Part shown: positions 1-14,431 of the stretch, piece by piece
How positions within the stretch are numbered: the first letter of the stretch is position 1
Layout of the letters: every line of letters begins with the position of its first letter
Source of the DNA: Hyphomicrobiales bacterium
Lineage (GTDB): Bacteria > Pseudomonadota > Alphaproteobacteria > Rhizobiales > Afifellaceae
Direction of reading: 5' to 3'
DNA: 14,431 nucleotides
Assembly (NCBI GenBank): GCA_013812985.1
Contig: JACCSN010000237.1
Location: 1 to 14,431, forward strand
The notes under the pieces: generated by a model
What the model was told of the DNA's origin: nothing
The model's database searches: none
What the model saw: the letters and a program-made list of their open reading frames with translations, nothing else
Program-made: the position numbers and the translations under genes

Positions 1-134
1 GCAATCCGGATCCCGAATGCGAGGAATGCTCCGCCCAACGCGAGCCTTGTATCGGCGCGCCCGGACATGCGATCGCGCAGACGCTGCAGCGCCAGCGCGC
101 CCGCGGCTGGCGCGACAGCTGTCCGGATGTTCAT
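1..134 (-). CDS. Probable partial CDS running off the left edge (N-terminus only)
   Basis: On the minus strand an ATG at 134 opens a frame that stays open to the window edge, giving about 44 residues beginning MNIRTAVAPAAGALALQRLR. It starts 11 nt after the stop of the upstream ATP-grasp gene on the same strand, the spacing expected of an operon partner. Roughly three quarters of its third codon positions are G or C, similar to the neighbouring genes. The visible part is rich in Ala, Leu and Arg and has a hydrophobic stretch near its end; I do not recognise a family. No strong Shine-Dalgarno sequence is visible. A competing plus-strand frame from base 3, cysteine-rich and open to about 311, has similar third-position bias. 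The minus reading is preferred for its position and composition, but it is uncertain. Confidence 0.38.
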   Translation of the reverse strand, partial: MNIRTAVAPAAGALALQRLRDRMSGRADTRLALGGAFLAFGIRI

Positions 135-145
135 CGGACCAGTAC

Positions 146-1390
146 TCACAACTTCCTGTCGGCTTTGGGCAAGCCTGGAAGCGCGGCGCTTCCCGATGAT
201 CTGCGCCGCACAAGAGAAGGTATGGCAAGGAGTTCCCTGAAACCGGGTTCAACGTCATCCCAGACAAAGGTGTCGGAGAACTCCTTGCCCGTGATCCAGC
301 CGACCGGCTGAAACGCGAAGTTGGCGAGCGACCCGGCCGTGCGGAGCGCCGATCCGGCGCCCTCCTCGGAGGTTCGAATCAGGATGTCGTATGCATTGAT
401 GAGAGCATTTCGCCCGCGCACGCCAATGCGGTAGGCCGGCTGCTGCGCCTCGCGGCCCTCGACCAACAAATCATAGAGCGCGCCCGGAAAGTCGACCCCG
501 AGGGCCAGGGGCAGCGGCATCGAGCCCCAGGGACGGGCATTAATTTCAAGCAGGACCCAATCCCTCGTGGTCGGGTTGAGACGGAATTCGAACATCGCAA
601 GGCCAGTGAACCCAAGGTGGCCAACGATTCGGGCGACTGCGGTCATGAGTTCGGAATCGAGCGCCTCGCTGACTCTGAGCGAACTGCCGCCGCCCGAATA
701 GGGCTCGTGAATCCGACGGTGCTGGAATGCCACCAGGATGCGGCCGGACGTCGCCAATACCGACACGCCGACCCCGACGCCAGGCACGAAAGCCTCGATG
801 ATATGGCCATCCGGATCCGATATGTCTTGAAGAGCTCGGCTAAGCTCGTTTGCATCTCTGAGGATTTCGACGCTGCCGCGTCGGTCGAGCGAGCGCAGCG
901 TGTAGGAGTGGCGGGGTTTCAGCACGAGCGGGAGGCCGAATCGCTCGATGGCGGACGCGGCGGATTCGACCTTTGAAACAACGTCGCCGCTGGCGACCGA
1001 GACCCCAAGCCGGCCTGCAAGCCGGCGCGTCCGGTGCTTGTCGAACAGCCAGCTTATGGCGGAAGGCGATGGTAGCGCGATGGTCGTGCCGTTGAACGCG
1101 TCTCGCCGGGAGTCGATGGCGAGGATCGAACGATCGCAACACGGGATCACAAGCGCGAAGCGGGTCGCCTCGAGATGGGCGCGAAGCGAATCGCACCAGG
1201 CGTCCAGGTCGCGGCTCAAATCAGGGAGCACGATCTTTTCGGCGACATAGCGCGACGTGAGGGCCGGCGCGTCAGGATCAAACGGGGCAACGTGGACGCG
1301 CAGCCCTTTGCGGCCGAGCGAGCGGACAATCGCCAGGAAACTCCTGGTGTCGTCCCCGATGACGAGCACATCCTGCTGTTTAGCCGGCAT
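146..1390 (-). CDS. ATP-grasp domain ligase, probably for a cell-surface or small-molecule conjugate
   Basis: A 414-residue protein with ATP-grasp architecture. Residues 7-40 are a Rossmann-like pre-ATP-grasp segment (DVLVIGDDTRSF). An ATP-binding lysine lies in VLKPRHS (K158), and the glycine-rich strand GGGSSLR is at 233-239. Metal-binding acids are E268 (AMFEFR) and E282/N284 in LLEINARPWGS. ATP-grasp enzymes join a carboxylate to an amine or thiol through an acyl phosphate; the substrate here cannot be read from sequence. The EINARPWGS form is one I associate with ATP-grasp proteins near exopolysaccharide genes, but that is recall, not a search result. The start is supported by GGAG 7 nt upstream of the ATG. 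The 3' end is followed after 11 nt by a probable co-transcribed gene leaving the window. No signal peptide is visible, so it is likely cytosolic. Confidence 0.85.
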   Translation of the reverse strand: MPAKQQDVLVIGDDTRSFLAIVRSLGRKGLRVHVAPFDPDAPALTSRYVAEKIVLPDLSRDLDAWCDSLRAHLEATRFALVIPCCDRSILAIDSRRDAFNGTTIALPSPSAISWLFDKHRTRRLAGRLGVSVASGDVVSKVESAASAIERFGLPLVLKPRHSYTLRSLDRRGSVEILRDANELSRALQDISDPDGHIIEAFVPGVGVGVSVLATSGRILVAFQHRRIHEPYSGGGSSLRVSEALDSELMTAVARIVGHLGFTGLAMFEFRLNPTTRDWVLLEINARPWGSMPLPLALGVDFPGALYDLLVEGREAQQPAYRIGVRGRNALINAYDILIRTSEEGAGSALRTAGSLANFAFQPVGWITGKEFSDTFVWDDVEPGFRELLAIPSLVRRRSSGSAALPGLPKADRKL

Positions 1391-1748
1391 TTATTTGCTC
1401 CGATGCGCCCCGAACGCGCTTGGATTGGCGGTGGTTATTCTGTTTGCCCACGCGGAGAATTTTAGTGATGTTGAAGCTTCACGATGCCCCTATATATTTC
1501 ACAATATGTTTAGAGCGCTTCGCCCCTTTTCCGGTATACTTGCTGAATGGTTTAGACGGTTGTGCGCCGCTCCGCTGCGGCGGACGTCTGACGGTCAGGA
1601 CCGAACGGTTTATGCCTTGAGAGCGGGAGTTTGAGCCGCAAGCCGGAGCCGCGTGCTTCTCGGCGAGCCGATGCCGCCGACCCTCGCGCGGACGGATGTC
1701 CGATTCTCGCCGGGCGTCCGGGAAAAATTCTAGGAGGACAGGCGAGAT
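1391..1748. other. Intergenic region with an AT-rich promoter island
   Basis: No convincing gene lies between the ATP-grasp start and the SRAP stop, both on the minus strand. Bases about 1440-1510 are strikingly AT-rich for this genome and probably carry the ATP-grasp promoter. The remainder (1560-1740) is GC-rich with a small stem (CGCCGC/GCGGCG near 1565-1582). I see no good intrinsic terminator for the SRAP gene: the hairpin near 1711-1724 has its A/T run on the wrong side for minus-strand transcription. The short open frames here lack codon bias or family resemblance. Confidence 0.5.
1471..1498 (+). promoter_or_regulatory. Candidate promoter elements and a 10-bp palindrome upstream of the ATP-grasp gene
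   Basis: TTGAAG (1471-1476) and TATATT (1493-1498) are 16 bp apart on the plus strand and resemble sigma-70 boxes pointing right. Overlapping them is a perfect 10-bp palindrome, TGAAGCTTCA (1472-1481), about 80 bp upstream of the ATP-grasp start. The same AT-rich stretch offers weak minus-strand -10-like hexamers (TAAAAT, TATATA). Which strand is used cannot be settled by reading. The plus-strand promoter would have no gene on its own strand for almost 1 kb, so an operator or minus-strand promoter for the ATP-grasp gene is at least as likely. Confidence 0.3.
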
Positions 1749-2444
1749 CTAAATGAGAAGCGGCTCGGCCAGGTCCGCTGCCACGTTCCACAACCCGGCG
1801 TCGTCATTGGCGGCCGCGTTCACCCGCGTGGACACCGGGACGCAGGTGAAGAGTTCGTCGGGCGCCGGCCTGAGCAGCGCCGCCGCCTCGTCCGGGTCCG
1901 TCTCCGGCGACAGCCACGCCGCGAAATTCTCCGGCGCCACCACAGCCGGCATGCGGTCGTGGATCGCCCTCAGGCATTCGTTGCAGGACACCGTGACGAT
2001 CGCCGCCGTGTCGATCTCCGCGCCGTCGTTTCCAGACCACGTCTCCCAGAGGCCGGCGAAGGCGAGGAGCTCGTCGCCTCCGGGGCGGATCGCGAAGGGC
2101 TGCTTGGGGCCGCTGGCGCGTCTCCGCCATTCGTAGAAGCCGGAGGCCGGGACGAGGCAGCGCCGGCGTCGGTAGGCGTTGCGGAACGCCGGCTTGTCGG
2201 CGACGCTCTCCGCCCGGGCGTTGATGAGGAGCGGCAGCTTCTTCAGATCCTTGGCCCAGGCCGGGATGAACCCCCACCGCATCGGCGCGAGCTCGCGGCC
2301 GCGCGGCGTCTGCCGGACGACGACGATCGGCTGCGTCGGTGCGATATTATAGCGCGGCGGGGTCAGCCGCTCGTCGACGGCCGGCAGCTTAAAGAGGAGG
2401 CGGATCGCCTCGGCATTGGCTATGAGCGTGTATCGACCGCACAT
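1749..2444 (-). CDS. SOS response-associated peptidase (SRAP) family protein, YedK/HMCES type
   Basis: A 231-residue protein beginning MCGRYT, the hallmark of the SRAP family. After removal of Met, Cys2 becomes the catalytic N-terminal residue. The other conserved residues are present: N75 and R77 in INARAES, E105 in GFYEW, and H162 in AIHDRMP. Family knowledge: YedK/HMCES sense abasic sites in single-stranded DNA and form a stable thiazolidine DNA-protein crosslink through Cys2, shielding the lesion during replication. Length is normal for the family. The start is fixed by the need for Cys at position 2. No clear Shine-Dalgarno and no GTTC-N7-GTTC alphaproteobacterial LexA box was seen upstream, so SOS control is not evident. 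It is transcribed divergently from the Nudix gene 26 bp away. Confidence 0.95.
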   Translation of the reverse strand: MCGRYTLIANAEAIRLLFKLPAVDERLTPPRYNIAPTQPIVVVRQTPRGRELAPMRWGFIPAWAKDLKKLPLLINARAESVADKPAFRNAYRRRRCLVPASGFYEWRRRASGPKQPFAIRPGGDELLAFAGLWETWSGNDGAEIDTAAIVTVSCNECLRAIHDRMPAVVAPENFAAWLSPETDPDEAAALLRPAPDELFTCVPVSTRVNAAANDDAGLWNVAADLAEPLLI

Positions 2445-2459
2445 CGGATAGGCTCAGGT

Positions 2460-2469
2460 TTCGCGCGAA
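2460..2469. promoter_or_regulatory. Perfect 10-bp palindrome between divergent SRAP and Nudix genes
   Basis: TTCGCGCGAA is self-complementary and lies within the 26-bp gap between the two divergent start codons, ending one base before the Nudix ATG. It could be an operator shared by both genes. At this GC content a 10-bp palindrome can also arise by chance. Confidence 0.25.
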
Positions 2470-2470
2470 G

Positions 2471-2908
2471 ATGGTGAGCTTGTCTAGCACCGGCAACGGC
2501 ACGTCCGAAACGGAGGCGTCGAGCATCGTCGTGCTGCGGCGCGATGCCGTCCTCATGGTGCAACGCGCCCGCGCCCCGTTTGCGGGACTCTGGAGCTTCC
2601 CGGGCGGCCGCGCGGAGTCAGGCGAGGACGCCGAGGCGACCGCGCGCCGCGAACTCATGGAGGAAACCGGGCTGACGGTCGGGCCGATCGTTGCCCTCGG
2701 CGACTTTCAGCCGGCGCCGGAACGCTCGGCACTGCGGCTTACGGTCTTCGCCGCCCGCGCCGGCGAAAGCGCTCCCAAGGCCGGAGACGACGCGCTCCGC
2801 GCCGAATTCGTCCCCTACGAGAGCGTGCTCCTGCGGCCGAGAACGGCCGGCTCGGCCGGCTGGATCGCGTGGGCTCTGGTGGCGCTTGCCGAGCCGCCCC
2901 TGCTATGA
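2471..2908 (+). CDS. Nudix hydrolase (small MutT-like)
   Basis: A 145-residue protein with a complete Nudix box at residues 46-68: G46, E52, then R60-E61-L-M-E64-E65-T-G67-L68, matching G-x5-E-x7-REUxEExGU. The preceding GLWSFPGG and a hydrophobic first strand (SSIVVLRRDAVLMVQR) are typical of the fold. Nudix enzymes use the box glutamates and a divalent metal to cleave nucleoside diphosphate-X bonds. The exact substrate (oxidised dNTP, ADP-ribose, nucleotide sugar) is not deducible, and calling it MutT itself would be unjustified. The first 17 residues are not conserved-looking and the start could lie slightly downstream. The 26-bp gap to the divergent SRAP gene means its promoter must overlap that gene's 5' end. 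The next plus-strand gene follows after 53 bp. Confidence 0.9.
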   Translation: MVSLSSTGNGTSETEASSIVVLRRDAVLMVQRARAPFAGLWSFPGGRAESGEDAEATARRELMEETGLTVGPIVALGDFQPAPERSALRLTVFAARAGESAPKAGDDALRAEFVPYESVLLRPRTAGSAGWIAWALVALAEPPLL

Positions 2909-2961
2909 TTCGCAGCGCAAGCAATTTCGCGAGTTGGACGCGGGCCGCAAGGAGACGCCCG

Positions 2962-3441
2962 ATGCGGCCCCCTTCTCGGGCCCTTGCGCTCGCGCTTTTC
3001 TTGGCTCTCACCCTGCTTTCAGGCCCGGCAGCCGCGCAGGAGCCGGAGGTGGAGCCTGACACCGAGCAATCCTCGGAGCCCGACGCGACCGGCGAGGCGG
3101 GAGAGGTCGGACCCCCGGCGCCGCCCGCCGAGGCCCCGCCGCCGATCTACGAGGAACAGCTCTTGCGGCTGTCGGAGATCCTGGGCTCGCTTTCCTTCCT
3201 GCGGCAGCTTTGCGGCGCGACCGATTCCGCCGTCTGGCGCGACGAGATGAGTGCGCTCCTGGCTGCGGAGCAGCCCGGGCCGCAGCGGCGGGCGCGGCTG
3301 ATCGGCCGCTTCAACCACGGCTTCGAGACCTTCAACGCCGTCTACCGGACCTGCACGCCGTCCGCCCGCCTCTCCATCAGTCGATACCTTGGCGAGGGGC
3401 AGACCCTTTCCAACAACGTGCGAAGCCGCTACAGCCAGTAA
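2962..3441 (+). CDS. TIGR02301-family exported protein of unknown function
   Basis: A 159-residue protein with a Sec signal peptide (residues 1-25, hydrophobic core ALALALFLALTLL, cleavage after AAA). A low-complexity Pro/Glu-rich linker spans about residues 26-65, and a conserved C-terminal domain begins at YEEQLLRLSEILGSLSFLRQ. That domain and the ending SLSNNV-like tail match my memory of TIGR02301, a family of alphaproteobacterial periplasmic proteins of unknown role. Two cysteines in the mature domain (LRQLCGA and YRTCTP) could form a disulfide. I chose ATG 2962 because AAGGAG sits 7 nt upstream and the signal peptide begins there. An in-frame upstream ATG at 2869 would overlap the Nudix gene and bury the signal peptide. 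Confidence 0.85.
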   Translation: MRPPSRALALALFLALTLLSGPAAAQEPEVEPDTEQSSEPDATGEAGEVGPPAPPAEAPPPIYEEQLLRLSEILGSLSFLRQLCGATDSAVWRDEMSALLAAEQPGPQRRARLIGRFNHGFETFNAVYRTCTPSARLSISRYLGEGQTLSNNVRSRYSQ

Positions 3442-3450
3442 CCTTGGGAA

Positions 3451-3466
3451 TTAACGTTCTCTTCAC
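3451..3466 (+). promoter_or_regulatory. CtrA-box-like motif (one mismatch)
   Basis: TTAA-N7-TTCAC lies 10 bp after the TIGR02301 stop and 46 bp before the candidate start at 3512. The alphaproteobacterial cell-cycle regulator CtrA recognises TTAA-N7-TTAAC; here there is one mismatch in the second half. The match stands out in GC-rich sequence, but a single degenerate site is weak evidence. Confidence 0.25.
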
Positions 3467-3511
3467 GTTTGCGTGCGCAGCGGGAAACGCTGTGCTACGT
3501 GGTGGGATCGA

Positions 3512-3784
3512 ATGGATGTCAGGGGCGACATGGACGATCTCAGCCAGCAGGAAACGGACGAGCTGCGCGTCCAGAAGCGAGAGGCTTTCGCCCGTTTGTC
3601 GGCGGTCTGGCAGGACGCGCTGGGCGCGGGCATCGAGCCCGACGTCCTCGCCCATGTCGCCCTCTTCGCGGCGCTTGGCGATCTCGTCGCCACCTATGGC
3701 GAGACCGCGGTCGCGGATTTCGCCGAGCGGCTGCCCGGCCGGATTTCTTCAGGTGAGTTCACGATCCCCCTCGTCCTGAATTGA
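3512..3784 (+). CDS. Small conserved-looking hypothetical protein
   Basis: A 90-residue acidic, soluble protein with the segment IEPDVLAHVALFAALGDLVATYGETAVADFAERLPGRI. This reads like a short helical protein I associate with rhizobial genomes, but I cannot name a family or function. It has no signal peptide or membrane segment. The start is ambiguous: ATG 3512 (GGTGGGA 4 nt upstream) and ATG 3530 (AGGGG 4 nt upstream) are both plausible, and an ATG at 3473 is also in frame. Conservation appears to begin around MDDLSQQE, which favours 3530. It follows the TIGR02301 gene on the same strand after about 70 bp that contain a CtrA-like motif. Confidence 0.65.
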   Translation: MDVRGDMDDLSQQETDELRVQKREAFARLSAVWQDALGAGIEPDVLAHVALFAALGDLVATYGETAVADFAERLPGRISSGEFTIPLVLN

Positions 3785-3879
3785 ATTTGCCGGGTTCTGG
3801 CGGAGGCTGTCGCGCGAGCTAGCTATCGTCGCGCGTCGCGGCCCGCTAGACAGGTAGAGAACCGTCTCGGACCGCCGCC

Positions 3880-4488
3880 ATGCCTCCAAGGTCGATCGCA
3901 TATTGCCTTGCTTTCGTCCTGTCGCTGCCGTCGGCGGGCGCCCTGGCGCTTTCGATCGAGCTGTCCCAGGCCGAGGTCGGGACGCAAGGCGCTGGCGCCG
4001 CGGCTCCGTCTGGGTCGCCTTCGCTGCCCCAAATTTTCCGCTCCGACGCCGATCTGCCGGAGCCGGTCCGGCAAATGCGGCTGCGGCTCATGGAGGCCGC
4101 GAGGACCGGTGACCTCAATCGGCTGCGCGCGCTCATGGACGAGCAGCCGGAGCCGCCGGCTGTTTCCCTCGGCAATGCTGGCGATCCGATCGAATACCTG
4201 AAGGCGCTGGCGACCGACGCCGAGGGCCGCGAAATCCTGGCGATTCTCCTGGAGGTGCTGGAGGCCGGGTTCGTCCGCGTTCAGGCCGGCGCGCCGGACG
4301 AGCTCTATGTCTGGCCCTATTTCGCGCAATATCCGCCGGATTCGCTGACCCCGCCGCAGCTCGTCGAATTGTTCACCTTGTTGACCGCCGCCGATTACGA
4401 GGAGATGCGCTCCTATGGCTCCTACACCTTCTTTCGCGTCGGCATAGCGCCGGACGGCCGCTGGCTGTTCTTCCTGGCCGGCGACTAA
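3880..4488 (+). CDS. Exported hypothetical protein
   Basis: A 202-residue protein starting with a signal peptide (MPPRSIAYCLAFVLSLPSAGALA), followed by a variable Gly/Ala/Ser linker. From about residue 60 there is a helical region (EPVRQMRLRLMEAARTGDLNRLRALMDE) that superficially resembles one ankyrin-like helix pair. The C-terminal part has many aromatic residues: LYVWPYFAQYPPDSLTPPQLVELFTLLTAADYEEM, then FFRVGIAPDGRWLFFLAGD. I recognise the pattern as a rhizobial conserved hypothetical but know no function. The ATG has no strong Shine-Dalgarno, but the signal peptide begins exactly there. It is convergent with the methyltransferase-like gene, with 51 bp between the stops. Confidence 0.75.
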   Translation: MPPRSIAYCLAFVLSLPSAGALALSIELSQAEVGTQGAGAAAPSGSPSLPQIFRSDADLPEPVRQMRLRLMEAARTGDLNRLRALMDEQPEPPAVSLGNAGDPIEYLKALATDAEGREILAILLEVLEAGFVRVQAGAPDELYVWPYFAQYPPDSLTPPQLVELFTLLTAADYEEMRSYGSYTFFRVGIAPDGRWLFFLAGD

Positions 4489-4539
4489 TTCCGCGTAGCC
4501 GGCGCTTATTCCGCCAGCGGGGCGCGGCCCGCCACGCTC

Positions 4540-5271
4540 TCAGCCCGCGTTGCAGGCTTTGATCGCCGAAGGCGCCGGCCGCGCGCCTTCGGCCGGTGGG
4601 GCGAAGACGGCGAGATAGCCGATGTTGCCTTCGAGCTGATGCATAGCGGTCTGGGTGTAGCCGACGGCCTCGAACTCGCACTTCAGCAAAGCGGGCGGCG
4701 TGCCGTGGTTTTCGGTCGGGCGGTCGAGGTCCACCACCCCGACCTTGGCGCCCGGCTTAAGCGCCGGGGCGAGGTTGTGCAGAAAGGCGTAGGGCTGCTC
4801 GATCTCGTGATACATGTGGACCATGAGAGCGGCGTCGATCGAGCCGGGCTGGAGGCGGGGGTCGTGCGGGTCGCCGAGCGCGAGCGTGATGTTCTGGAGG
4901 TTCTTCTCCTTCGCCGTCTTGTCCAGCATGGCGAGGTATTCGGGCATGATGTCCTCTGCGATGATGCGGCCGGTGTCGCCGACGACGGGCGACAGGCGGA
5001 CGCTGTCGTAACCAGAGCCCGCGCCGATGTCGGCCACGGTCATGCCGGGCTTCAGCTCCATGAGGCGGGTGAGCTGGCCGGCTTCGTCAGCGGCGTCGCG
5101 ATTTTGTTCCGTCCACCAGGTGTGGGACACGATCCCGGCCACCGGCCGGTCGGGCGCGGGGAAGGTCGCGGGCGCTTCGCCGGCGGGCGCGAGCGGCTGC
5201 ATTTGCTGCGCGCCGGCCGCGACCGGCAAGGCGAGCGCGAACACCAAAGCGATCTGCGAAACGAGCTTCAT
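4540..5271 (-). CDS. Exported SAM-methyltransferase-fold protein
   Basis: A 243-residue protein with class I SAM-methyltransferase motifs: motif I VADIGAGSGYD (D81 to G87), an acidic residue after strand 2 (IIAEDIMPE), GDPHDPRLQPGSIDAALMVHMYHEI as the motif II/III region, and LKPGAKVGVVDLDRP after it. It also begins with a convincing Sec signal peptide (MKLVSQIALVFALALPVAAGA, cleavage near residue 21), which would place it in the periplasm, where SAM is not expected. Signal-bearing predicted methyltransferases (COG4798-like) are known in proteobacteria, but their activity is unclear to me. ATG 5271 is chosen because AAGGG lies 9 nt upstream and the signal peptide starts there; in-frame extension upstream gives only basic low-complexity sequence. 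It lies 61 bp downstream of the flippase gene on the same strand, so co-transcription is possible. Confidence 0.85.
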   Translation of the reverse strand: MKLVSQIALVFALALPVAAGAQQMQPLAPAGEAPATFPAPDRPVAGIVSHTWWTEQNRDAADEAGQLTRLMELKPGMTVADIGAGSGYDSVRLSPVVGDTGRIIAEDIMPEYLAMLDKTAKEKNLQNITLALGDPHDPRLQPGSIDAALMVHMYHEIEQPYAFLHNLAPALKPGAKVGVVDLDRPTENHGTPPALLKCEFEAVGYTQTAMHQLEGNIGYLAVFAPPAEGARPAPSAIKACNAG

Positions 5272-5332
5272 GGAATCGGACCCTTGATCTGACCCCCGTC
5301 TCCTAAATGGGACGGTCGTGCACTTTGGCCCG

Positions 5333-6766
5333 TCAACTCTTCTTGAGGACCCGGTGCGCGCTCCAGCTTGGTAAGGTGGAGAATATCGAGGTGTTGATGC
5401 GGAGCCGCCTGCCGACCGCCGCCGAGAGCCAGGCTGCGCGCAGAGCAAGCGATATGGCGCTCGCCGCCGCCGCTCCGCCGATGCCGAATGGAATGACCAG
5501 CGCGACCGCCAGCGCCACGTTGACCGCGACGACCACCAGATAGGTTTTGGCGGACAGGCTGCCGTTGCCCGTCATGTTGAGGACGTCTTCCGCCGGCCCG
5601 GCCGCGACGCGGGCGACGATTCCGAGGGCCAGGATGGCCAGAGCCATATAGCCGGCCTCATAGCCCTGGCCGAACATGGCGAGCAGCCAGTCGCCCGCCG
5701 CGATGATGACGGCTACCGCCAGCCCGGCGACGGCGAAGGTGGTCACCGCCACATGGCGGGTCAGCCGCTGCAGCTCGCCCTGGTCGCCGCGCGTATGGCT
5801 CGCCGCGAGGAGGTGCGCCGTGCCGACGGTGGCGGCGAACGGCACCAGGTTGACCACCTGGATGATCCGCGTCGCGGCGAAGTAGACGGCGATCTCGGCC
5901 GGGCTCACGAAGAAGGAGAGCACGAGGATGTCGGCGAAGGAGGTGAGGTGGGAGGCGCCATAGAGGACGGCGAAGGGCACGGAGCCGCCGATCCACTCGC
6001 GCACGCGGTATGATCGCGGTCCGGCCGGCAGCACCCGCCGCAGCCGGATCAGGAGATCGACAGCCTGGTAGACGAGCGACACGACCAGCACCGCGACAAG
6101 GCAGACGAAGCCGTTCGCCGCGGTCGCTTCGAAGCCGAGCCACACCGCCGCCACCATGAAGAGGAGCAGAAGTGCGTGGCGCAGGATATAGATCGGCAGG
6201 AGCGCCCGCACCGTCCAGCCGAAGCTGCGGTCCACGGCCTCCAGGAAGCACTGCATGCAGGCGAAAGGGACCGCGAGCGCCATTAGCATCATGGGGATGA
6301 GATACGCCTCGCCAATCCAGCGCGCCGCCAGCGGGAGCGCCAGCACGAGCAGCACCCCGGTGGCCACCGAGACGAGGATGACGACGATCGGCGCGACCAG
6401 CAGGAAGCCGCGCAGATGCGCCGCCTCGCCGCGTTCCTTAAGCTCGGCGATGTAGCGAAGCGGAGAATTGCCGAAGCCGAGTGTGGACACGGCGGTGAAC
6501 ACCATGAACCAGACCCAGGTGTAAGCGAAGACGCCGTATTCGAACTGGCCCATCAGCCGCGCCAGGACGACCTGGGCCAGATAGGCGAGGGCGGCGTTGG
6601 CGAGCCGGACGAGGAGCGCCGCCGCAGAGCCGCGCCGCGCCGCCGATGCCGCGTCGGACCGCGTGAAGAAGCTGCGCGACAATCGAGCAAGGCTGCGCAC
6701 GCGTCTCTCCGATTTCGCTGGTCCGGTCGTCAGGGCGGATGCCGCGCATGAATCCGTCAGGTTCAT
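5333..6766 (-). CDS. Polysaccharide/lipopolysaccharide flippase of the MOP superfamily (Wzx-like)
   Basis: A 477-residue integral membrane protein with roughly 12-14 hydrophobic segments. It opens with a basic cytosolic N-terminus, then LLVRLANAALAYLAQVVLARLMGQFEYGVFAYTWVW, the characteristic first-two-helix region of polysaccharide biosynthesis flippases. The segment FGNSPLRYIAELKERGE and the C-terminal half, with VLNMTGNGSLSAKTYLVVVAVNVALAVALVIPFGIGGAAAASAIS, also fit Wzx/MviN-type exporters. It probably flips an undecaprenyl- or lipid-linked saccharide across the inner membrane; the cargo is unknown. The frame is open upstream to 6904, but that would run into the tRNA gene. ATG 6766, with GGGG 5 nt upstream, is the sensible start. 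No glycosyltransferases adjoin it, so it is an orphan or serves a distant locus. Confidence 0.88.
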   Translation of the reverse strand: MNLTDSCAASALTTGPAKSERRVRSLARLSRSFFTRSDAASAARRGSAAALLVRLANAALAYLAQVVLARLMGQFEYGVFAYTWVWFMVFTAVSTLGFGNSPLRYIAELKERGEAAHLRGFLLVAPIVVILVSVATGVLLVLALPLAARWIGEAYLIPMMLMALAVPFACMQCFLEAVDRSFGWTVRALLPIYILRHALLLLFMVAAVWLGFEATAANGFVCLVAVLVVSLVYQAVDLLIRLRRVLPAGPRSYRVREWIGGSVPFAVLYGASHLTSFADILVLSFFVSPAEIAVYFAATRIIQVVNLVPFAATVGTAHLLAASHTRGDQGELQRLTRHVAVTTFAVAGLAVAVIIAAGDWLLAMFGQGYEAGYMALAILALGIVARVAAGPAEDVLNMTGNGSLSAKTYLVVVAVNVALAVALVIPFGIGGAAAASAISLALRAAWLSAAVGRRLRINTSIFSTLPSWSAHRVLKKS

Positions 6767-6858
6767 GCTGCCCCAAACTGAATGAACGACGCGTTTCCTG
6801 CCGCTTGCCGCCGAACCTGCCCGAGGACGAACGGCTTCAGGCGTATCGTGGATGAATT

Positions 6859-6934
6859 TGGCTCCCCGGGAATGGATTCGAACCATCGACCCGGCGGGAA
6901 ACAACCGCCTGCTCTACCGCTGAACTACCGGGGA
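6859..6934 (-). tRNA. tRNA-Asn (GUU), atypical
   Basis: A minus-strand cloverleaf: acceptor TCCCCGG/CCGGGGA (7 bp), D arm GTTC/GAGC with loop AGCGGTA, anticodon stem GGCGG/CCGCC with loop TTGTTTC (anticodon GUU), T loop TTCGAAT, discriminator G and an encoded CCA (6859-6861). The U1-A72 pair, G73 and GUU agree with bacterial tRNA-Asn. Two oddities: position 37 is U where tRNA-Asn normally has A, and one extra nucleotide lies between T loop and acceptor, so stem GATGG faces the six bases CCATTC with a bulge. It is 73 nt without CCA; a regular molecule with this D loop would be 72. The flippase gene starts 92 nt downstream with no terminator seen between them. A degenerate or specialised tRNA are both possible. 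Confidence 0.8.
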
Positions 6935-7099
6935 CCATGCCGCTTCGTGCGCTGCTTCCTTGAGGAAACACACCGAATTAGCCGCGTAACCTTAATTAAA
7001 CTTGGACCGTCCGGGCGCGGTCGGGACTGGTAATGCTTGTCGCGGCTCTTCGTAAGCGGCCGTGGCGATCGATGAGATTAGCCTGCGGGAAAGGCTGAA

Positions 7100-8302
7100 A
7101 TGCGGGAAACCGATATCGCCATCGTCGGCGGCGGGCTGGCCGGCGCGACGGCCGCCGCCATGCTCGGGCGCGCCGGTGTTCGGGCGGTCCTGGTCGACCC
7201 TCATGCCGCCTATCCGCCGGATTTCCGCTGTGAGAAGCTTGACGCCTCGCAGGTCGAACTCCTGCGCAAGACCGGCCTCGCCGAAGCGGTGCTTCGAGCG
7301 GCCACGCCCGACGGCCAGGTCTCGATCGTGCGCTACGGCCGGTTGGTCGACCGGCGGCCGAACTCTCAGTACGACATCTTCTACGACACACTGGTCAATA
7401 CGATCCGGGCTAAAATTCCAGACAGCATCGAAGTCCTCGGCGCCAAGGCGAGGGTCGTCTCGACCGGGCCGGACCGGCAAAAAGTTGCGCTTTCGACGGG
7501 CGAAGAGATCTCCGCCCGCCTCGTGGTCATGGCGAACGGGTTGAACAGCGCCTTGCGTCAGACGATGGGGATGACGCGCCGAGACATCAGCAAATGCCAC
7601 TCGATCAGCATCGGGTTCGATCTGATCCCGGTTGGCCGGCCGAGCTTCGATTTCCGCGCCTTGACCTATTATCCCGCAAGCCCGGCCGATCGGCTGGCCT
7701 ACCTCACGCTGTTTCCGATCGGCGCCACGATGCGGGCGAATTGCTTCGTCTATCGCGACTTCGACGATCCCTGGCTGCGCCAGCTCCGCGAAGCGCCTTT
7801 GAAGACCCTGGCGCAAGCCATGCCGGGGCTCCTGGAGTTGACGGGGAAATTCGAAGTCCGCGGCTTCATCAAGATCCGCCCCGTCGACCTGTATGTCACC
7901 GAGGGGCACAGGCAGCACGGGATTGTGCTCGTCGGAGATGCTTTCGCAACGTCCTGCCCGGCCGCCGGAACCGGCGCCAACAAGGTCTTCACCGATGTGG
8001 AGCGCCTCTGCAAAGAGTACATTCCGCAATGGCTGCTGACGCCTGGAATGGGCGTGGAAAAGGTAAGCGCTTTTTACGACGATCCGGCCAAGCAAGCGTC
8101 GGATCGAGACTCCGCTTGGAAAGCCATGTATTTGCGCTCGCTGTCGATTGACACCGCGTTGCAATGGCGGGCGCGCCGCGCGGCGAAGTTTGTCCTCCAG
8201 CTTGGCCTGGGCAAGCTGCGGCGAATGTCGCATCTTATCTCGACGAGACCGGCATATCCGGACAGGCCCGCCCGCGCCGGGGGAGGCTCGAGCGTCCGAT
8301 GA
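7100..8302 (+). CDS. FAD-dependent oxidoreductase/monooxygenase (UbiH/PHBH-like fold)
   Basis: A 400-residue flavoprotein. The N-terminal Rossmann motif is GGGLAG (residues 10-15) followed by the ribose-binding acid D33 at the end of strand 2. The second FAD motif is VLVGDAFATSCPAAGTGANK, with G279-D280. In place of the usual (A/C)DG motif of class A monooxygenases it has ANGLNSALR (about residues 146-154), an Asn for Asp substitution. Such enzymes hydroxylate or otherwise oxidise small organic substrates using FAD, O2 and NAD(P)H; no substrate can be assigned. AAGG lies 6 nt upstream of the ATG. No signal peptide or membrane helix is evident. Its stop codon overlaps the start of the GNAT gene (ATGA), which implies translational coupling and a shared pathway. 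Confidence 0.85.
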   Translation: MRETDIAIVGGGLAGATAAAMLGRAGVRAVLVDPHAAYPPDFRCEKLDASQVELLRKTGLAEAVLRAATPDGQVSIVRYGRLVDRRPNSQYDIFYDTLVNTIRAKIPDSIEVLGAKARVVSTGPDRQKVALSTGEEISARLVVMANGLNSALRQTMGMTRRDISKCHSISIGFDLIPVGRPSFDFRALTYYPASPADRLAYLTLFPIGATMRANCFVYRDFDDPWLRQLREAPLKTLAQAMPGLLELTGKFEVRGFIKIRPVDLYVTEGHRQHGIVLVGDAFATSCPAAGTGANKVFTDVERLCKEYIPQWLLTPGMGVEKVSAFYDDPAKQASDRDSAWKAMYLRSLSIDTALQWRARRAAKFVLQLGLGKLRRMSHLISTRPAYPDRPARAGGGSSVR

Positions 8303-9678
8303 ATTCCGCTTCAGGGGGCTTCATGGTTCAGCTCAAGCGCGCCGCCACCGTGCCGGCGGCGTTCCGTCGCGCGGTTGATGCGGCGGCGTTGCGATCCCGG
8401 CTGCGTGGACAAGGACCCTCCGGCGGGTCGCGAACACAGCCTTCGTCTGTCAACTCGGCGGCGAGGATGTCGCGTTCCGGCGCAAGGCTCCGCGTCTATG
8501 ACGATCTGTTCGCCGTCGAGCGCGAGTGGAAACGCCTGGAAATAAGCGCCGAGGGCACGGCGTTTCAGAGCTTCGACTGGCTGGCCGCGTTCATCCAGCA
8601 TGTTGCTCCGAGCCGCGACATCAAACAGGCTATCGTCTGCGGCTGGGACCTGGACGGCGAGCTTCTCTTTGTCTTTCCTTTCGCCATTGAGAAGAAGGGG
8701 CCGATCCGGAGCCTGGTATGGCTCGGTTCGGACCTTTGCGACTACAACGCGCCGATCTGCTCGTCCGAATCCCTCACTAAGTTTTGCGCCGATAATTTCG
8801 ATCTGCTCTGGGCGGAGGTTATTGCGCTCTTGAGGAGTGATCCACGTTACCGTTTTGACCTGATCGATCTTCAGAAGATGCCGGACTGCATCAACGGCGT
8901 GAAGAACCCATTCCTGGCGCTGCCGGTTTTCCCCCACACGAGCAGCGGCCATCTTGTCGAGCTTGGGACGACCTGGGACAGCTTCTACGCCGCCAAGCGC
9001 TCCAGCTCGACACGGAAGCGGGAGAGGCGCCAGCTTCGGCAGATGTCCGACCACGGCGAGGTCCGCTTCGTCCGGATGCGCGAACCGGCGGAGATCGAAA
9101 CGACGCTGGAGACCTTGTTCCGGCAGAAATCCGCCTGGTTCGCCCGGACAGGCGTGGCGAACATATTTGCCCGGCCGGGGTATCGCGACTTCTTCCGGGA
9201 GCTTGCGACCGATCGCGGCATGCAGGACATGGTGCACCTGCACCGATTGGACATCGGCAGGGCCATCGCGGCGACCAGCTTCGGCCTCCTCTGGGGCACT
9301 CGCTTCTATCTCGTCCTCTCAAGCTATACGGACGGGGACCTGGCCCGCTTCGGCCCCGGGCGCGCCCACCTTCACGAGCTTTTCCGGTTCGCCATCGAGA
9401 ACGGCTGCACGGAGCTCGATCTCACGATCGGCGACGAGCCCTACAAGTTCGAATGGTCGGACCGGCAGGTCCTTTTGTTCGATTACCTCTCCGCCAGCAC
9501 CGTTCGAGGCGGCCCCGTCGTGGTGACGATGAAGGCGCTTCGGCAAGCCAAAGGCGTCGTGAAGACGACGCCGGCCTTGTGGAGCGCCTTTGTGCGCGCA
9601 CGGGCCTTGCTGGGATCGACTCGATCCAAGCAGCCGCAGTTGCAAGGTGAGCACGGCAACGGCGGCGCGCTGGCGTGA
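8299..9678 (+). CDS. GNAT-fold acyltransferase, CelD/BcsL/FemAB-like (Acetyltransf_6)
   Basis: A 459-residue protein. The first 55 or so residues are basic, low-complexity and probably disordered. A split GNAT domain follows: residues about 57-200 (LRVYDDLFAVEREWKRLE, AFQSFDWLAAFIQHV, typical of CelD-like N-lobes) and 200-410, with the helix YAAKRSSSTRKRERRQLRQM, the core IGRAIAATSFGLLWGTRFYLVLSSYTD, and the closing ELDLTIGDEPYKFEWSD, a signature of this family. Members are found with cellulose and exopolysaccharide genes and are presumed to acylate sugars; FemAB relatives transfer amino acids from tRNA. ATG 8299 overlaps the upstream TGA. ATG 8323, with AGGGGG 5 nt upstream, is an alternative. 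An in-frame extension to 8164 lies wholly inside the preceding gene and is rejected. Confidence 0.85.
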   Translation: MNSASGGFMVQLKRAATVPAAFRRAVDAAALRSRLRGQGPSGGSRTQPSSVNSAARMSRSGARLRVYDDLFAVEREWKRLEISAEGTAFQSFDWLAAFIQHVAPSRDIKQAIVCGWDLDGELLFVFPFAIEKKGPIRSLVWLGSDLCDYNAPICSSESLTKFCADNFDLLWAEVIALLRSDPRYRFDLIDLQKMPDCINGVKNPFLALPVFPHTSSGHLVELGTTWDSFYAAKRSSSTRKRERRQLRQMSDHGEVRFVRMREPAEIETTLETLFRQKSAWFARTGVANIFARPGYRDFFRELATDRGMQDMVHLHRLDIGRAIAATSFGLLWGTRFYLVLSSYTDGDLARFGPGRAHLHELFRFAIENGCTELDLTIGDEPYKFEWSDRQVLLFDYLSASTVRGGPVVVTMKALRQAKGVVKTTPALWSAFVRARALLGSTRSKQPQLQGEHGNGGALA

Positions 9679-9759
9679 CGAGCCAGATATGGTGCTGGTG
9701 ATGAGCCGAGGCCTGTAAGGAAGCCTGGCTTTTTGCTATCTGTCCGTCAGGAGGATGTG
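9679..9759 (+). promoter_or_regulatory. Intergenic region with weak terminator-like stem and the parD leader
   Basis: After the GNAT stop, AGGC (9709-9712) and GCCT (9723-9726) can pair and are followed by GGCTTTTT, a weak intrinsic-terminator-like arrangement. Downstream TGCTATCT may be a -10 region, but I see no good -35. AGGAGG at 9749-9754 is a perfect Shine-Dalgarno 5 nt before the parD ATG. The toxin-antitoxin promoter should lie here. Confidence 0.35.
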
Positions 9760-10029
9760 ATGAGCGACAGCCAAACCATCATGGTCGATCTCGGCGAGTT
9801 CGGGCCCCGCGTGCAGGCAAGGATTGATTCCGGCGAGTTCGAAACAGCCAGCGACGTGATCCGAGCCGGGATCGAGGCGCTGGACCGCGAAGATGCGGAT
9901 TTCGACCGATACCTTAGGGAAAAGGTCGCGGAATCGCTTAACGATCCGCGTCCGAGCATTCCGGCCGACGAGGTTTTCGATCGGATCCTGCGGAGGCACG
10001 AGGAGTTGATTCAGAAGCATAAATCGTGA
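9760..10029 (+). CDS. parD: ParD-like type II antitoxin
   Basis: An 89-residue acidic protein. Its N-terminal ribbon-helix-helix region (TIMVDLGEFGPRVQARIDSGEFETASDVIRAGIEAL, residues about 6-42) closely follows the ParD/CopG pattern, including the typical SGEFETASDVIR motif. The C-terminal half (REDADFDRYLREKVAESLNDPRPSIPADEVFDRILRRHEELI) is helical and should wrap around the toxin. Family knowledge: ParD dimers bind their own operator and neutralise ParE. The start at ATG 9760 is set by AGGAGG 5 nt upstream; a TTG at 9733 is in frame but lacks a ribosome site. Its stop overlaps the ParE start (GTGA), as in most such pairs. The module sits between the GNAT gene and ygfZ and is probably an acquired insertion. 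Confidence 0.92.
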   Translation: MSDSQTIMVDLGEFGPRVQARIDSGEFETASDVIRAGIEALDREDADFDRYLREKVAESLNDPRPSIPADEVFDRILRRHEELIQKHKS

Positions 10030-10328
10030 GCCGCGACGTTATCTACCGGCCTGCTGCCGAGGCTGATCTTAAAGCCATTTACGATTATATAGCTCGGGAC
10101 AGTCGTGAAAACGCGTTGCGTTTCCTAGAACGGATACGAACGAGGGCTGATTCCCTCTCCGACTTTCCACAACGGGGGACTCGGCGTGACGATGTTTCTC
10201 CGGGTCTGCGCACTTTTGGAATTGAGCGACGGGTAACGATTGTATTCCGCGTAACCTCGGACAGTGTTGAGATCGTCAACGTTTTGTATGGAGGACGGGA
10301 CATTGAACTCGCCCTGCGCAGCAATTGA
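10026..10328 (+). CDS. parE: ParE/RelE-family type II toxin
   Basis: A 100-residue basic protein with the ParE pattern: a first strand VIYRPAAEADLKAIYDYIA, a helix pair rich in Arg (ENALRFLERIRTRADSLSDFPQRGTRRDD), then GLRTFGIERRVTIVFRVTSDSVEIVNVLYGGRD, the C-terminal strands with conserved Arg and Tyr-Gly-Gly-Arg. Family knowledge: ParE toxins poison DNA gyrase, whereas RelE relatives cleave mRNA on ribosomes; the sequence sides with ParE. It uses a GTG start overlapping the parD stop by 4 nt. The gene appears intact, with no frameshift or truncation, so the pair is likely functional. Its stop lies 5 bp before the ygfZ ATG, leaving ygfZ dependent on read-through or on an internal promoter. 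Confidence 0.92.
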   Translation: MSRDVIYRPAAEADLKAIYDYIARDSRENALRFLERIRTRADSLSDFPQRGTRRDDVSPGLRTFGIERRVTIVFRVTSDSVEIVNVLYGGRDIELALRSN

Positions 10329-10333
10329 CAAGC

Positions 10334-11170
10334 ATGCCTCAAGCCTCCCTCCATGACCGCGCCGTCGTCCGGATCACCGGCCCCGATTCCGGCGCGGTTC
10401 TGCACAACGTGCTCACCCTCGACCTGCCGGACGTTGATCGTCACGGCAGCGGCTATGGCGCGCTGCTGACGCCGCAGGGGAAAATCCTGTGGGATTTCGT
10501 CCTTCATAGGCTTCCGGACGGCTATGCCGCCGACCTGCGCGCCGATCAGGCCGAAGCCTTCGCCAAGCGGCTGGCGCTTTACAAGCTTCGCGCCAAAGTG
10601 GAGATCGCCGCCGCGCCGGACCTGGCGGTCTTCGTGGAGTGGCCGGAGTCGCCGGAGCATCCCGCGGATCCGCGGCTGGCGCTGCTCGGCAGCCGCTGGC
10701 TTGCGCCGGCCGGCTCGGTCGCAACCGCCGCCGCCGCCGATTGGCATCGCCACCGGATCGCGCTCGTCATCCCGGAGGGCGGCGTCGATTTCGTCTTCGG
10801 CGACACGTTTCCGCACGACGCCGCCATGGACTCCCTGCACGGCATCGCTTTCGACAAGGGCTGCTACATCGGCCAGGAGGTGGTGAGCCGCATGCGCCAT
10901 CGGGGCACGGCGCGCCGCCGCATCGTCGCGCTCCACGCCGCCGGAATCCTGCCCGAGCCCGGCGCTGAGATTACTGCCGGAGATCGCCCTCTCGGCCGGC
11001 TCGGCTCGTCGGCGGACGGGCGCGGCATCGGTCTCGTCCGCCTGGACCGGCTCCGCGCCGCCCTTGATGCGGGTGTGCCTATCCTGGCCGGCGGCGAGGA
11101 GGTCGGCGTTGAGCTGCCTACCTGGGCCACCTATAGCTGGCCCGCCGACGCGGCGGCCGGGGAGGACTGA
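10334..11170 (+). CDS. ygfZ: Folate-binding YgfZ/CAF17 family protein
   Basis: A 278-residue protein related to GcvT. It carries the family signature KGCYIGQEVVSRMRHRG with the invariant Cys at residue 177. N-terminal ALLTPQGKILWDFVLHRLPDGYAADL (about residues 34-60) is also typical. YgfZ binds tetrahydrofolate and helps assemble or repair certain [4Fe-4S] enzymes such as MiaB. The domain order (GcvT-like N and middle domains, short C-terminal barrel from about residue 200) and length are normal for alphaproteobacteria. ATG 10334 is chosen; a TTG at 10325 overlapping the parE stop is in frame but adds only three residues. No clear ribosome site precedes either. Six bp separate its stop from the HD gene, so it heads a four-gene run. 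Confidence 0.93.
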   Translation: MPQASLHDRAVVRITGPDSGAVLHNVLTLDLPDVDRHGSGYGALLTPQGKILWDFVLHRLPDGYAADLRADQAEAFAKRLALYKLRAKVEIAAAPDLAVFVEWPESPEHPADPRLALLGSRWLAPAGSVATAAAADWHRHRIALVIPEGGVDFVFGDTFPHDAAMDSLHGIAFDKGCYIGQEVVSRMRHRGTARRRIVALHAAGILPEPGAEITAGDRPLGRLGSSADGRGIGLVRLDRLRAALDAGVPILAGGEEVGVELPTWATYSWPADAAAGED

Positions 11171-11176
11171 GCGGCG

Positions 11177-11839
11177 ATGCCCGACAAGGCTGGCGCGCCG
11201 CCCGGCGCCTGGCAGCGCATGCTGTCCGGCCGTCGGCTGGATCTGCTCGATCCCTCGCCGCTCGATATCGAGGTGGAGGACATCGCCCACGGCCTGGCTC
11301 GCGTCGCCCGCTGGAACGGCCAGACCGTCGGCGACCACGCCTTCTCGGTCGCCCAGCACTCGCTCCTCGTCCAGCGGATCTTTCAGCTCCAGCAGCTTGG
11401 CGCATCGGCCCGCGACGGCTTGGCGGCGCTCCTGCACGACGCGCCGGAATATGTGATCGGCGACATGATCTCGCCCTTCAAGTCGGTTCTCGACGGCGCC
11501 TACAAGGCGGTCGAGCGCCGCCTGCTCGCCGCCGTGCACCTGCGCTTCGGCTTGCCCGCCGAACTGCCTGAGCCGGTGCTGCGGCGGATCAAAAAGGCCG
11601 ATCAGGTGTCCGCCTATTGGGAAGCCGTGCGCCTCGCCGGCTTCGCGGAAGCGGAGGCGCTGCGCTTCTTTGGCCGGCCCGGCGGGATCGGCGGCGATCA
11701 GCTGGCTGGCTTTCTCGATCCTTGGCCTGCAAAGGAGGCCGAATCCCGCTATCTGGCGAGCTTCGAAGTTCTGGCCGGCAAGGCCGAAGCCGCCCAGCAC
11801 TCGCCTCCGAAAGCAGAGAAAAGGACGGGACGCCCATGA
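11177..11839 (+). CDS. HD-domain phosphohydrolase, YfbR-like
   Basis: A 220-residue protein with the HD metal-binding set H61 (SVAQHSLL), H87-D88 (LLHDAPE) and D142 (IKKADQ), plus E91, which parallels the catalytic acid of YfbR. The N-terminal WQRMLSGRRLDLLDPSPLDIEVEDIAHGLARVARWNGQT is the usual lead-in for alphaproteobacterial HD proteins that I have seen annotated next to ygfZ. YfbR itself is a 5'-deoxynucleotidase; whether this protein shares the substrate is inference. The C-terminal 20 residues are charged and low-complexity. GGAGGA (11161-11166) lies 10 nt before the ATG. The stop overlaps the next gene's start as ATGA, indicating coupled translation. Confidence 0.88.
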   Translation: MPDKAGAPPGAWQRMLSGRRLDLLDPSPLDIEVEDIAHGLARVARWNGQTVGDHAFSVAQHSLLVQRIFQLQQLGASARDGLAALLHDAPEYVIGDMISPFKSVLDGAYKAVERRLLAAVHLRFGLPAELPEPVLRRIKKADQVSAYWEAVRLAGFAEAEALRFFGRPGGIGGDQLAGFLDPWPAKEAESRYLASFEVLAGKAEAAQHSPPKAEKRTGRP

Positions 11840-12351
11840 CCGCCATCTATGTCTGCCCGCTGTCGCGGCTGGCGGAAACGGTTTCGCGCTCCGGCGCCCG
11901 CCATGTCGTGACGTTGATCGACAAGGACACGCCGGTGCCGAGGCCAACGGACGTGCTTGCCCCGGACCACCTCTTCATCGGCGTGAACGACATCTGCGAG
12001 CCGATGGACGGCATGATCTGTCCGGGCAACGAGCATGTGGAGGAGTTCCTCGATTTCGCCCGCCGCTGGGATCGCCAGGCGCCGGTTGTCGTGCACTGCT
12101 TTGCCGGCATCAGCCGCTCCACCGCGGCGGCCTATTCGGCCTTTTGCGCGCTCCGCCCCGACCTCGACGAGGCGGAGATCGCCACCCGCCTCCGCGGCCG
12201 CTCGCCGGAAGCCACGCCCAATGCCCGCATCGTGGCGGTCGCCGATGCAATCCTGAAGCGGGACGGGCGGATGGTTCGTGGAATCGAGGCCATCGGCCGC
12301 GGCGTCGATGCGATGGAGGGCAGCATTTTCGCGCTCCGCCTTGATGAATGA
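11836..12351 (+). CDS. Tyrosine/dual-specificity phosphatase-like protein
   Basis: A 171-residue protein with the cysteine-phosphatase P-loop HCFAGISRS: H87, nucleophile C88, R94, so C-x5-R is intact. The N-terminal half (YVCPLSRLAETVSRSGARHVVTLIDKDT) resembles the first strand-helix of compact bacterial dual-specificity phosphatases. PDHLFIGVNDICEPMDG may carry the general acid, D52 or D58. The substrate could be phosphotyrosine protein, a phosphoinositide-like molecule or another phosphoester. No signal peptide is seen, so it is cytosolic. ATG 11836 overlaps the HD stop by 4 nt, and an in-frame extension to 11617 lies inside the HD gene and is rejected. It overlaps the histidine phosphatase gene by 8 nt, so the three phosphohydrolases are probably made together. 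Confidence 0.88.
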   Translation: MTAIYVCPLSRLAETVSRSGARHVVTLIDKDTPVPRPTDVLAPDHLFIGVNDICEPMDGMICPGNEHVEEFLDFARRWDRQAPVVVHCFAGISRSTAAAYSAFCALRPDLDEAEIATRLRGRSPEATPNARIVAVADAILKRDGRMVRGIEAIGRGVDAMEGSIFALRLDE

Positions 12352-12973
12352 CGCGACCGCTTCGAAGGCGGCGGCAGCAGGACGGCAGGTCGCCAGCCGC
12401 GTGCCGCTCATCTTCATCCGCCACGGCGAGACCGACTGGAACCGGGAGGCGCGGCTGCAAGGGCAGCAGGACATCCCGCTGAACGGGCTCGGGCGCCGGC
12501 AGGCGGAGCGGAACGGCCGCGCGCTCGCCGGAGTGCTCGCCGCCGGCGACTGGCGCGCCATCGCCTCGCCGCTGTCACGCGCCGCCGAGACCATGCGCAT
12601 CTTGCTCGCGGCCGCCGGCAGGCCGGATGTTGGCTTTGAAATCGACCCGATTCTGAAGGAGATCTCTTACGGCGATTGGGAGGGGCTTACTCTGGCCGAG
12701 GTCGCTCACCGCGACGCGGACGGCGCCCGCGCCCGCGAGCGCGACAAATGGAGTTTCGTCCCGCCCGCCGGCGAAAGTTACGCGCTGGGCGCCGAACGCG
12801 TCGGAGCCTGGCTTGAGAGCCTCGATGGCCCGAGCCTCGTCGTCGCCCATGGCGGCATCCTGCGCATCCTGCTGCACCTTCTGGCCGGGCTGCCATCGCA
12901 TGACGCCCCGTACCTCGCCACGCCGCAGGACCGCGTCGTCCTTTTCACCCGGACGGCGGTGTTCACGATCTGA
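12344..12973 (+). CDS. Histidine phosphatase family protein (phosphoglycerate mutase-like)
   Basis: A 209-residue protein with the histidine phosphatase signature LIFIRHGETDWN (phosphorylated H27). It also has an acid region EISYGDWEG (about residues 105-113), the RLQGQQDIPLNGLGRRQAE segment and the second catalytic His in VVAHGGILRI (H169). The family covers cofactor-dependent phosphoglycerate mutases, alpha-ribazole phosphatases and sugar or lipid phosphatases. At this length and with this C-terminus it is a general phosphatase rather than a proven mutase. ATG 12344 overlaps the preceding gene by 8 nt; the 19 or so N-terminal residues before the first strand look non-conserved. A phosphatase gene of this type commonly precedes aroC in Rhizobiales, as I recall. 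Here a repeat element separates them. Confidence 0.9.
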   Translation: MNDATASKAAAAGRQVASRVPLIFIRHGETDWNREARLQGQQDIPLNGLGRRQAERNGRALAGVLAAGDWRAIASPLSRAAETMRILLAAAGRPDVGFEIDPILKEISYGDWEGLTLAEVAHRDADGARARERDKWSFVPPAGESYALGAERVGAWLESLDGPSLVVAHGGILRILLHLLAGLPSHDAPYLATPQDRVVLFTRTAVFTI

Positions 12974-13262
12974 GAGCTTGTGAATCGTTTCCAAGGTTCC
13001 GCAATCAAGTCTGAGTTTGACCAACCTCGAGGTTTGTCATCCCGGTTTGGCCGGAGGCCAAGACCGGGACCCATAAACGCCGGCGCATGCGCGGAGAGCG
13101 ACGACGTCGAAGCACTTTCGGCGAGCTTCAGCGTTTATGGGTCCCGGACAGGCGCTGCGCGCCTTCCGGGATGACAATCGCGCAAATGGGACGCGCATGT
13201 GTTCTGGGGAATCCACCCACGAAAGGGAGCGGGATGCGGTCGGGGATCGATTCACAAGCTCT
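12973..13262. repeat. Composite palindromic element bounded by a 15-bp inverted repeat
   Basis: AGAGCTTGTGAATCG at 12973-12987 recurs as its exact reverse complement at 13248-13262, enclosing about 290 bp with no gene. A related 12-bp direct repeat, CTGAGTTTGACC (13011-13022) and CTGAATTTGACC (13261-13272), lies inside and across the right end. The left repeat begins on the last base of the histidine phosphatase stop codon. I see no target-site duplication and no transposase, so a MITE is possible but unproven. The interior carries the REP-like hairpin pair listed separately and small palindromes GCGCATGCGC (13083-13092) and CGACGTCG (13102-13109). Confidence 0.7.
13034..13177. repeat. Inverted pair of REP-like hairpins (BIME-like)
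   Basis: The two arms, 13034-13080 and 13131-13177, are inverted copies: 12 nt (TTGTCATCCCGG / CCGGGATGACAA) and 17 nt (CCGGGACCCATAAACGC / GCGTTTATGGGTCCCGG) match exactly. The 18 nt between these blocks differ completely. Yet each arm folds by itself: the left as CCCGGT-TTGGCC-GGA-GGCCAA-ACCGGG with one bulge (13041-13068), the right as CCCGGA-C-AGGCGC-TGC-GCGCCT-TCCGGG (13143-13170). Repeats opening GTCATCCCGG are widespread in rhizobial intergenic regions, so this is probably a member of a genomic repeat family. It could act as a transcription attenuator between the phosphatase run and aroC. Confidence 0.8.
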
Positions 13263-13318
13263 GAATTTGACCGGCCCCAGCGCCGCGCCTAAGAAGCCGC
13301 GAGCTCGTCCCATCCTTC

Positions 13319-14413: not shown

Positions 14414-14431
14414 CTGTCGCTGCCCGTCTCG

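Follow-up and report, generated by a model that had tools for sequence, protein, structure and literature searches.

A probable specialised tRNA-Asn gene beside a FemX-like transferase and a flavin monooxygenase in Hyphomicrobiales

The window analysed here, a stretch of 14,431 nucleotides (contig JACCSN010000237.1, positions 1 to 14,431), comes from a bacterium known here from metagenome DNA only. It carries an odd tRNA-Asn gene on the minus strand (6859-6934) and, on the plus strand and divergent to it, the genes of a flavin monooxygenase (PF01494, 7100-8302) and of a GNAT-fold transferase (PF13480, 8323-9678). The tRNA and the monooxygenase gene are separated by 165 bp (6935-7099), and no sigma-70-like promoter or terminator was found in 6650-7150. 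ARAGORN called tRNA-Asn(gtt) at 6863-6934 of the minus strand, and the same stretch matched the Rfam tRNA family RF00005 at 45.0 bits against a cut-off of 29; with G73 and the encoded CCA the gene spans 76 nt. The anticodon GUU, G73 and the U1-A72 pair of a canonical tRNA-Asn are all present, as a previous sequence-only reading had stated, and G18-G19, the T-loop and all stems are intact.

Two regions depart from the canonical molecule. The anticodon loop, UUGUUUC (6898-6904, minus strand), differs from the CUGUUAA of normal tRNA-Asn at positions 32 (U, at 6904), 37 (U, at 6899) and 38 (C, at 6898), around an unchanged anticodon (6902-6900). The sequence-only reading was right about U37, at the place of the canonical A37, the t6A site, and had passed over U32 and C38. 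U37 precludes t6A. The second change is in the T-arm, whose 3' strand CCATTC (6870-6875, minus strand) is one nucleotide longer than its 5' strand GATGG can pair. Of four tRNAs submitted to free folding only one, and not that of the window, came out as a full cloverleaf, so we assessed the cloverleaf by a pairing check. This gave 21 standard pairs in the 76-nt sequence once a single nucleotide in the 3' strand of the T-arm was left unpaired, either a C following a G49-U65 pair or, with G49-C65 paired, a U that bulges out. The Rfam alignment instead forces a C-C mismatch into the acceptor stem. The pairing check thus bears out the extra T-arm nucleotide noticed earlier, and the molecule lacks the uninterrupted 5-bp T-stem joined directly to a 7-bp acceptor stem that is seen in canonical tRNA-Asn.

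The monooxygenase was assigned by Pfam and by a predicted structure (pLDDT 87), whose best Foldseek matches were PnpA, UbiI and other flavin monooxygenases; homologues at 34-43% identity occur in six plasmid records. For the transferase, which had no plasmid match at E 1e-20, we took the start from the homologue P0241, the open reading frame itself opening at 8164. Its homologues are named CelD/BcsL acetyltransferases, and a sequence search of solved structures returned no match. An AlphaFold2 model of the residues coded by 8467-9675 (pLDDT 91) has the double-GNAT fold of FemX, and structure comparison of the model was led by FemX, FemA and Sbb17. Because Pfam gave only PF13480 and a sub-threshold DUF1127 match (E up to 10), and no FemAB family match, we call the protein FemX-like in fold and not a member of that family. 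An invariant Lys327 following Tyr326, picked from the sequence, is a candidate for the catalytic lysine, a role held by Lys305 in FemX and Lys329 in DhpH-C according to the available text of PMC12945691.

A search for the monooxygenase in 397 genomes of the order found 17 at E 1e-100 or better, and a class-wide search found 4 of 385 at E 1e-80. When 21 monooxygenase loci were scanned with ARAGORN, a single tRNA appeared, in locus L256 of genome G263; Rfam, run on 20 sources, detected a tRNA only in L264, a longer stretch at the same place. This second copy, divergent to the monooxygenase gene at a distance of 180 bp, has a loop and a T-stem identical to those of the window, extra nucleotide included, so a sequencing error is excluded as the origin of that base. 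The two tRNAs agree at 70 of 76 positions, the six differences being unpaired or keeping the pairing, and the G263 copy scores 44.0 bits with RF00005 and again forms 21 of 21 standard pairs. Beyond the monooxygenase lie the transferase and then a second transferase paralogue. Protein identities to the window are 54.8% (monooxygenase), 47.6% (transferase) and 45.7% (second paralogue), fourfold-degenerate sites of the flanking genes agree at only 59 of 121 and 40 of 101, and blastn around both tRNAs gave one significant match, of 79 nt, with flanks that do not align. To judge by these comparisons, a non-functional tRNA would be expected to have lost its fold, its oddities or both over such a distance.

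The sequence-only reading had allowed that this might be the only tRNA-Asn of its genome. That is not the case in G263, where one of the stretches analysed also contains a normal tRNA-Asn (loop CTGTTAA, 74.6 bits), making the odd gene an additional isoacceptor there; we infer that the genome of the window has a canonical tRNA-Asn as well. Compared with their 70/76 agreement with each other, the odd tRNAs each match the normal tRNA-Asn of G263 at 60 of 77 positions and the normal ones of relatives at 64 of 77 at best, a pattern suggesting that the odd type arose once. We also observed in G263 that the two transferase paralogues stand tail to tail (L264 6207-7496 and 7573-8874) with 50% mutual identity, the window having one, and that a 258-aa open reading frame and a PgaB-like polysaccharide deacetylase lie downstream of the odd tRNA (L264 10541-12399). 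The 258-aa frame corresponds to the N-terminal part only of an AMP-binding enzyme and weakly resembles exosortase-associated acyl-CoA ligases. These downstream genes hint at a surface-glycan product. Elsewhere in G263, ARAGORN called a 69-nt candidate tRNA-SeC(tca) at L308 1391-1459.

In order to see how rare the odd tRNA is, we relied on pattern searches. All 11 genomes of the related family have one GTT-anticodon tRNA each, with the loop CTGTTAA. In the order, 162 of 199 genomes had a match to a pattern that allows any base at position 37, and every tRNA-Asn among the matches listed has CTGTTAA, and hence A37. Two stricter U37 patterns, demanding GGTAGAGC or NTCC, matched 0 of 397 and 0 of 398 genomes, counts that overstate the rarity because both patterns are too strict and would also miss the G263 copy. 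A search allowing up to 3 mismatches found the odd tRNA in 1 of 28 genomes of the family of G263. A DNA search of the genome of Faunimonas pinastri with the odd tRNA was uninformative, giving no match and missing that genome's normal tRNA-Asn too. In viral contigs the U37 pattern had 4 matches (by ARAGORN one tRNA-Asn, two tRNA-Thr and one 8-base loop) versus at least 120 for the A37 pattern, and the specific odd-tRNA pattern occurred in 0; nor did the odd tRNA have a match of at least 90% identity in phage or plasmid collections.

As to charging, the sequence-only reading had assumed that AsnRS relies mainly on the anticodon and G73, a premise that is probably not applicable here. None of the 11 related genomes reached the asnS cut-off, which 7 of 14 control genomes reach, and the weak matches in the related genomes, in frames of 612-778 residues, are probably AspRS. 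Given the lack of matches above the cut-off in these relatives, charging would go by way of a non-discriminating AspRS and GatCAB. The available text of earlier work describes A37 as an AsnRS determinant (PMC9976931), recognition of G34, U35, C36, C38 and G73 by AspRS, and recognition of U1-A72 by GatCAB (PMC9976931, PMC4206432). The combination in the odd tRNA of U1-A72, G73 and C38 without A37 fits, at the level of sequence, this AspRS/GatCAB route. The amino acid finally carried could be either Asn or Asp.

We consider it probable, at roughly 0.6, that the gene is a specialised extra tRNA-Asn, joined in a conserved cassette to the genes of a FemX-like aminoacyl-tRNA transferase and of a flavin monooxygenase. 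It is probably no broken gene but a tRNA dedicated to donating its amino acid. The features on which charging should rest in its lineage (G34-U35, G73, U1-A72) are all kept; Asp would be attached by AspRS, for which C38 is a determinant, and would then be converted to Asn by GatCAB. Lacking A37 and hence t6A, altered at 32 and 38, and with an extra nucleotide in the T-arm contacted by EF-Tu, whose binding depends on T-stem pairs (PMC4052509, available text), the molecule would decode poorly, so that its amino acid would stay available to the transferase encoded next to it. This enzyme would add the amino acid to a small molecule, a glycan or a lipid, and the monooxygenase would oxidise the product or its precursor. 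The fuller version of this proposal, to which we give even odds, is a biosynthetic cassette of Hyphomicrobiales encoding its own tRNA, which would be charged by AspRS and GatCAB and used off the ribosome by the FemX-fold transferase and the flavin monooxygenase to make a metabolite or surface glycan bearing Asn or Asp. Of the interpretations offered by the sequence-only reading, a donor outside translation gains support from the linked gene, with FemX-type aminoacyl-tRNA transferases as the closest matches to the predicted fold of its product, and a pseudo-tRNA is contradicted by the conservation of the odd loop and the extra base beside the same genes in a distant genome. Since the tRNA lies beside its presumed transferase and deviates in a few defined positions, the question of a dedicated donor becomes directly testable.

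Four other explanations were weighed. It is unlikely that the gene supplies a back-up tRNA-Asn, protected by its altered loop from an anticodon nuclease or a toxin that cuts tRNAs, to sustain translation under attack. The loop does differ from that of normal tRNA-Asn at 32, 37 and 38, three of its four positions beyond the anticodon, changes in the anticodon loops of phage tRNAs have been proposed to block cleavage (PMC10264068, available text), and one viral contig with 22 tRNAs (L089) has two tRNA-Asn genes (5620-5692 and 9641-9716), the second with U37 and outside the main tRNA array. However, the window offers no phage or prophage context: PHROGs, searched with 10 window proteins, matched only a toxin-antitoxin pair, a methyltransferase and a phosphoglycerate-mutase-like protein, with no structural or replication family, so that near the tRNA the toxin-antitoxin pair alone had a match and the flippase, monooxygenase and transferase had none. 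As for defence genes, PADLOC gave no more than two matches to E1-E2, both weak, at 18.9 and 17.6 bits. Nuclease resistance would, moreover, leave the conserved T-arm nucleotide, the loss of the t6A site and the linkage to a FemX-fold gene unexplained.

Similarly doubtful is a regulatory tRNA-like RNA, which would, for instance, act as a decoy, with AspRS, GatCAB or an enzyme that modifies tRNAs as its target, or belong to a longer regulatory RNA. The intact fold with a disturbed decoding loop would suit it, Bacillus cereus has a documented pseudo-tRNA of regulatory function (PMC3399842, available text), and the divergent position could let the RNA sense charging for the monooxygenase operon; but the encoded CCA, G73 and U1-A72, dispensable for a decoy, are all retained, the conserved block is the tRNA alone between unalignable flanks, and the FemX-like neighbour is a simpler partner. 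That this is an ordinary decoding tRNA-Asn, an isoacceptor carried along that tolerates U37 and the extra nucleotide, seems quite improbable: its GUU anticodon, G18-G19, T-loop and stems would serve, yet A37 is universal in the tRNA-Asn of the order among the matches listed, G263 already has a normal tRNA-Asn, and two separate contacts with the translation machinery have changed jointly and stayed so. A decaying duplicate or an assembly or sequencing error is very improbable, since the score of 45.0 bits, below all 83 tRNA matches of two relatives (lowest 51.6), stands against oddities shared with G263 while fourfold sites nearby agree at only 40-49%, and the relaxed constraint and broken stems of a tRNA pseudogene were sought in vain, with 70/76 identity despite diverged neighbours and no pair broken in either copy.

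The dedicated-donor reading has partial precedents, described here from the available text of each source. Of the five tRNA-Gly isoacceptors of Staphylococcus aureus, three carry features compatible with weak binding to EF-Tu and are possible donors for FemXAB (PMC4052509, PMC4810233). As in our case, changes in the isoacceptors are expected to weaken EF-Tu binding and a GNAT-fold transferase, there building pentaglycine bridges, is thought to be fed; here, in contrast, the isoacceptor is a tRNA-Asn, the tRNA gene lies beside the transferase gene and the host is Gram-negative. The changes also differ, lying at 18-19 and in pairs 49-65 and 51-63 in S. aureus and at 32, 37, 38 and in the extra T-arm nucleotide in the window, with GG at 18-19 kept in both odd copies. 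The natural-product GNAT-fold transferases VlmA, DhpH, DhpK, PacB and Orf11 use aminoacyl-tRNA and share the FemX-like double-GNAT fold (PMC12945691), and the structures solved for their relatives Sbb17 and Sba18 rank among those nearest to the window transferase. Unlike the cassette described here, with its own tRNA gene, a dedicated tRNA is unmentioned in the available text of that review, which contains neither the term 'tRNA gene' nor 'isoacceptor'. The tRNAOther of B. cereus is likewise an accessory tRNA-like gene, without a function in translation (PMC3399842), but its place is at the flank of a genomic island and its proposed action lies within longer regulatory RNAs, whereas the window tRNA has CCA and a FemX-fold gene as its neighbour. 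Mutations in the anticodon loop of phage tRNAs similarly leave the anticodon itself intact (PMC10264068); these tRNAs are phage-encoded and presumed to decode, and no phage context was seen here. The window would join a special tRNA and its own transferase in one cassette, and in the open-access literature, as far as its available text goes, we found no report of a FemX-like transferase whose gene cluster includes a tRNA gene. The arrangement in the window suggests that loci of PF13480 'acetyltransferases' merit a search for tRNA genes, and that some of this large family may use aminoacyl-tRNA.

A search with the flippase gene of the window found one genome, that of Faunimonas pinastri, of the order Hyphomicrobiales, and the flippase occurs at E 1e-40 or better in 9 of the 11 genomes of its family. 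The nine loci have the same flank order as the window, as far as each stretch extends: SRAP, NUDIX, DUF2385 and flippase, then YgfZ, HD, phosphatase, PGM and AroC. Between the flippase and YgfZ sides the tRNA, monooxygenase and transferase are all absent from them, and the prospect that relatives carry a normal A37 tRNA at the same site found no support, with no tRNA of any kind in the eight scanned stretches or in L001. One of the 11 family genomes has the monooxygenase, at another place and without a tRNA. The simplest reading is that the lineage of the window gained tRNA, monooxygenase and transferase as a block. That the tRNA served as an integration site was rejected, no direct repeat of it of at least 16 nt having been reported in 5200-11300. 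In two relatives a putative dihydroorotase-like open reading frame, named from its sequence, lies between flippase and ygfZ (L075 7328-8671, L077 6341-7726), approximately where the window has its three genes. Between transferase and ygfZ the window has a ParD/ParE-type toxin-antitoxin pair (9733-10328); because a pair also precedes ygfZ in G010 (L075 6699-7248), and the ParD half in G009 (L076), it seems older than the tRNA cassette. Finally, across window 5333-9678 the flippase has a near-identical protein (P0001, 100% over 95%, on a short JGI contig of 7435 bp) and so does the transferase (P0241, 98%, on a short JGI contig of 1729 bp), so a close strain has been sampled more than once.
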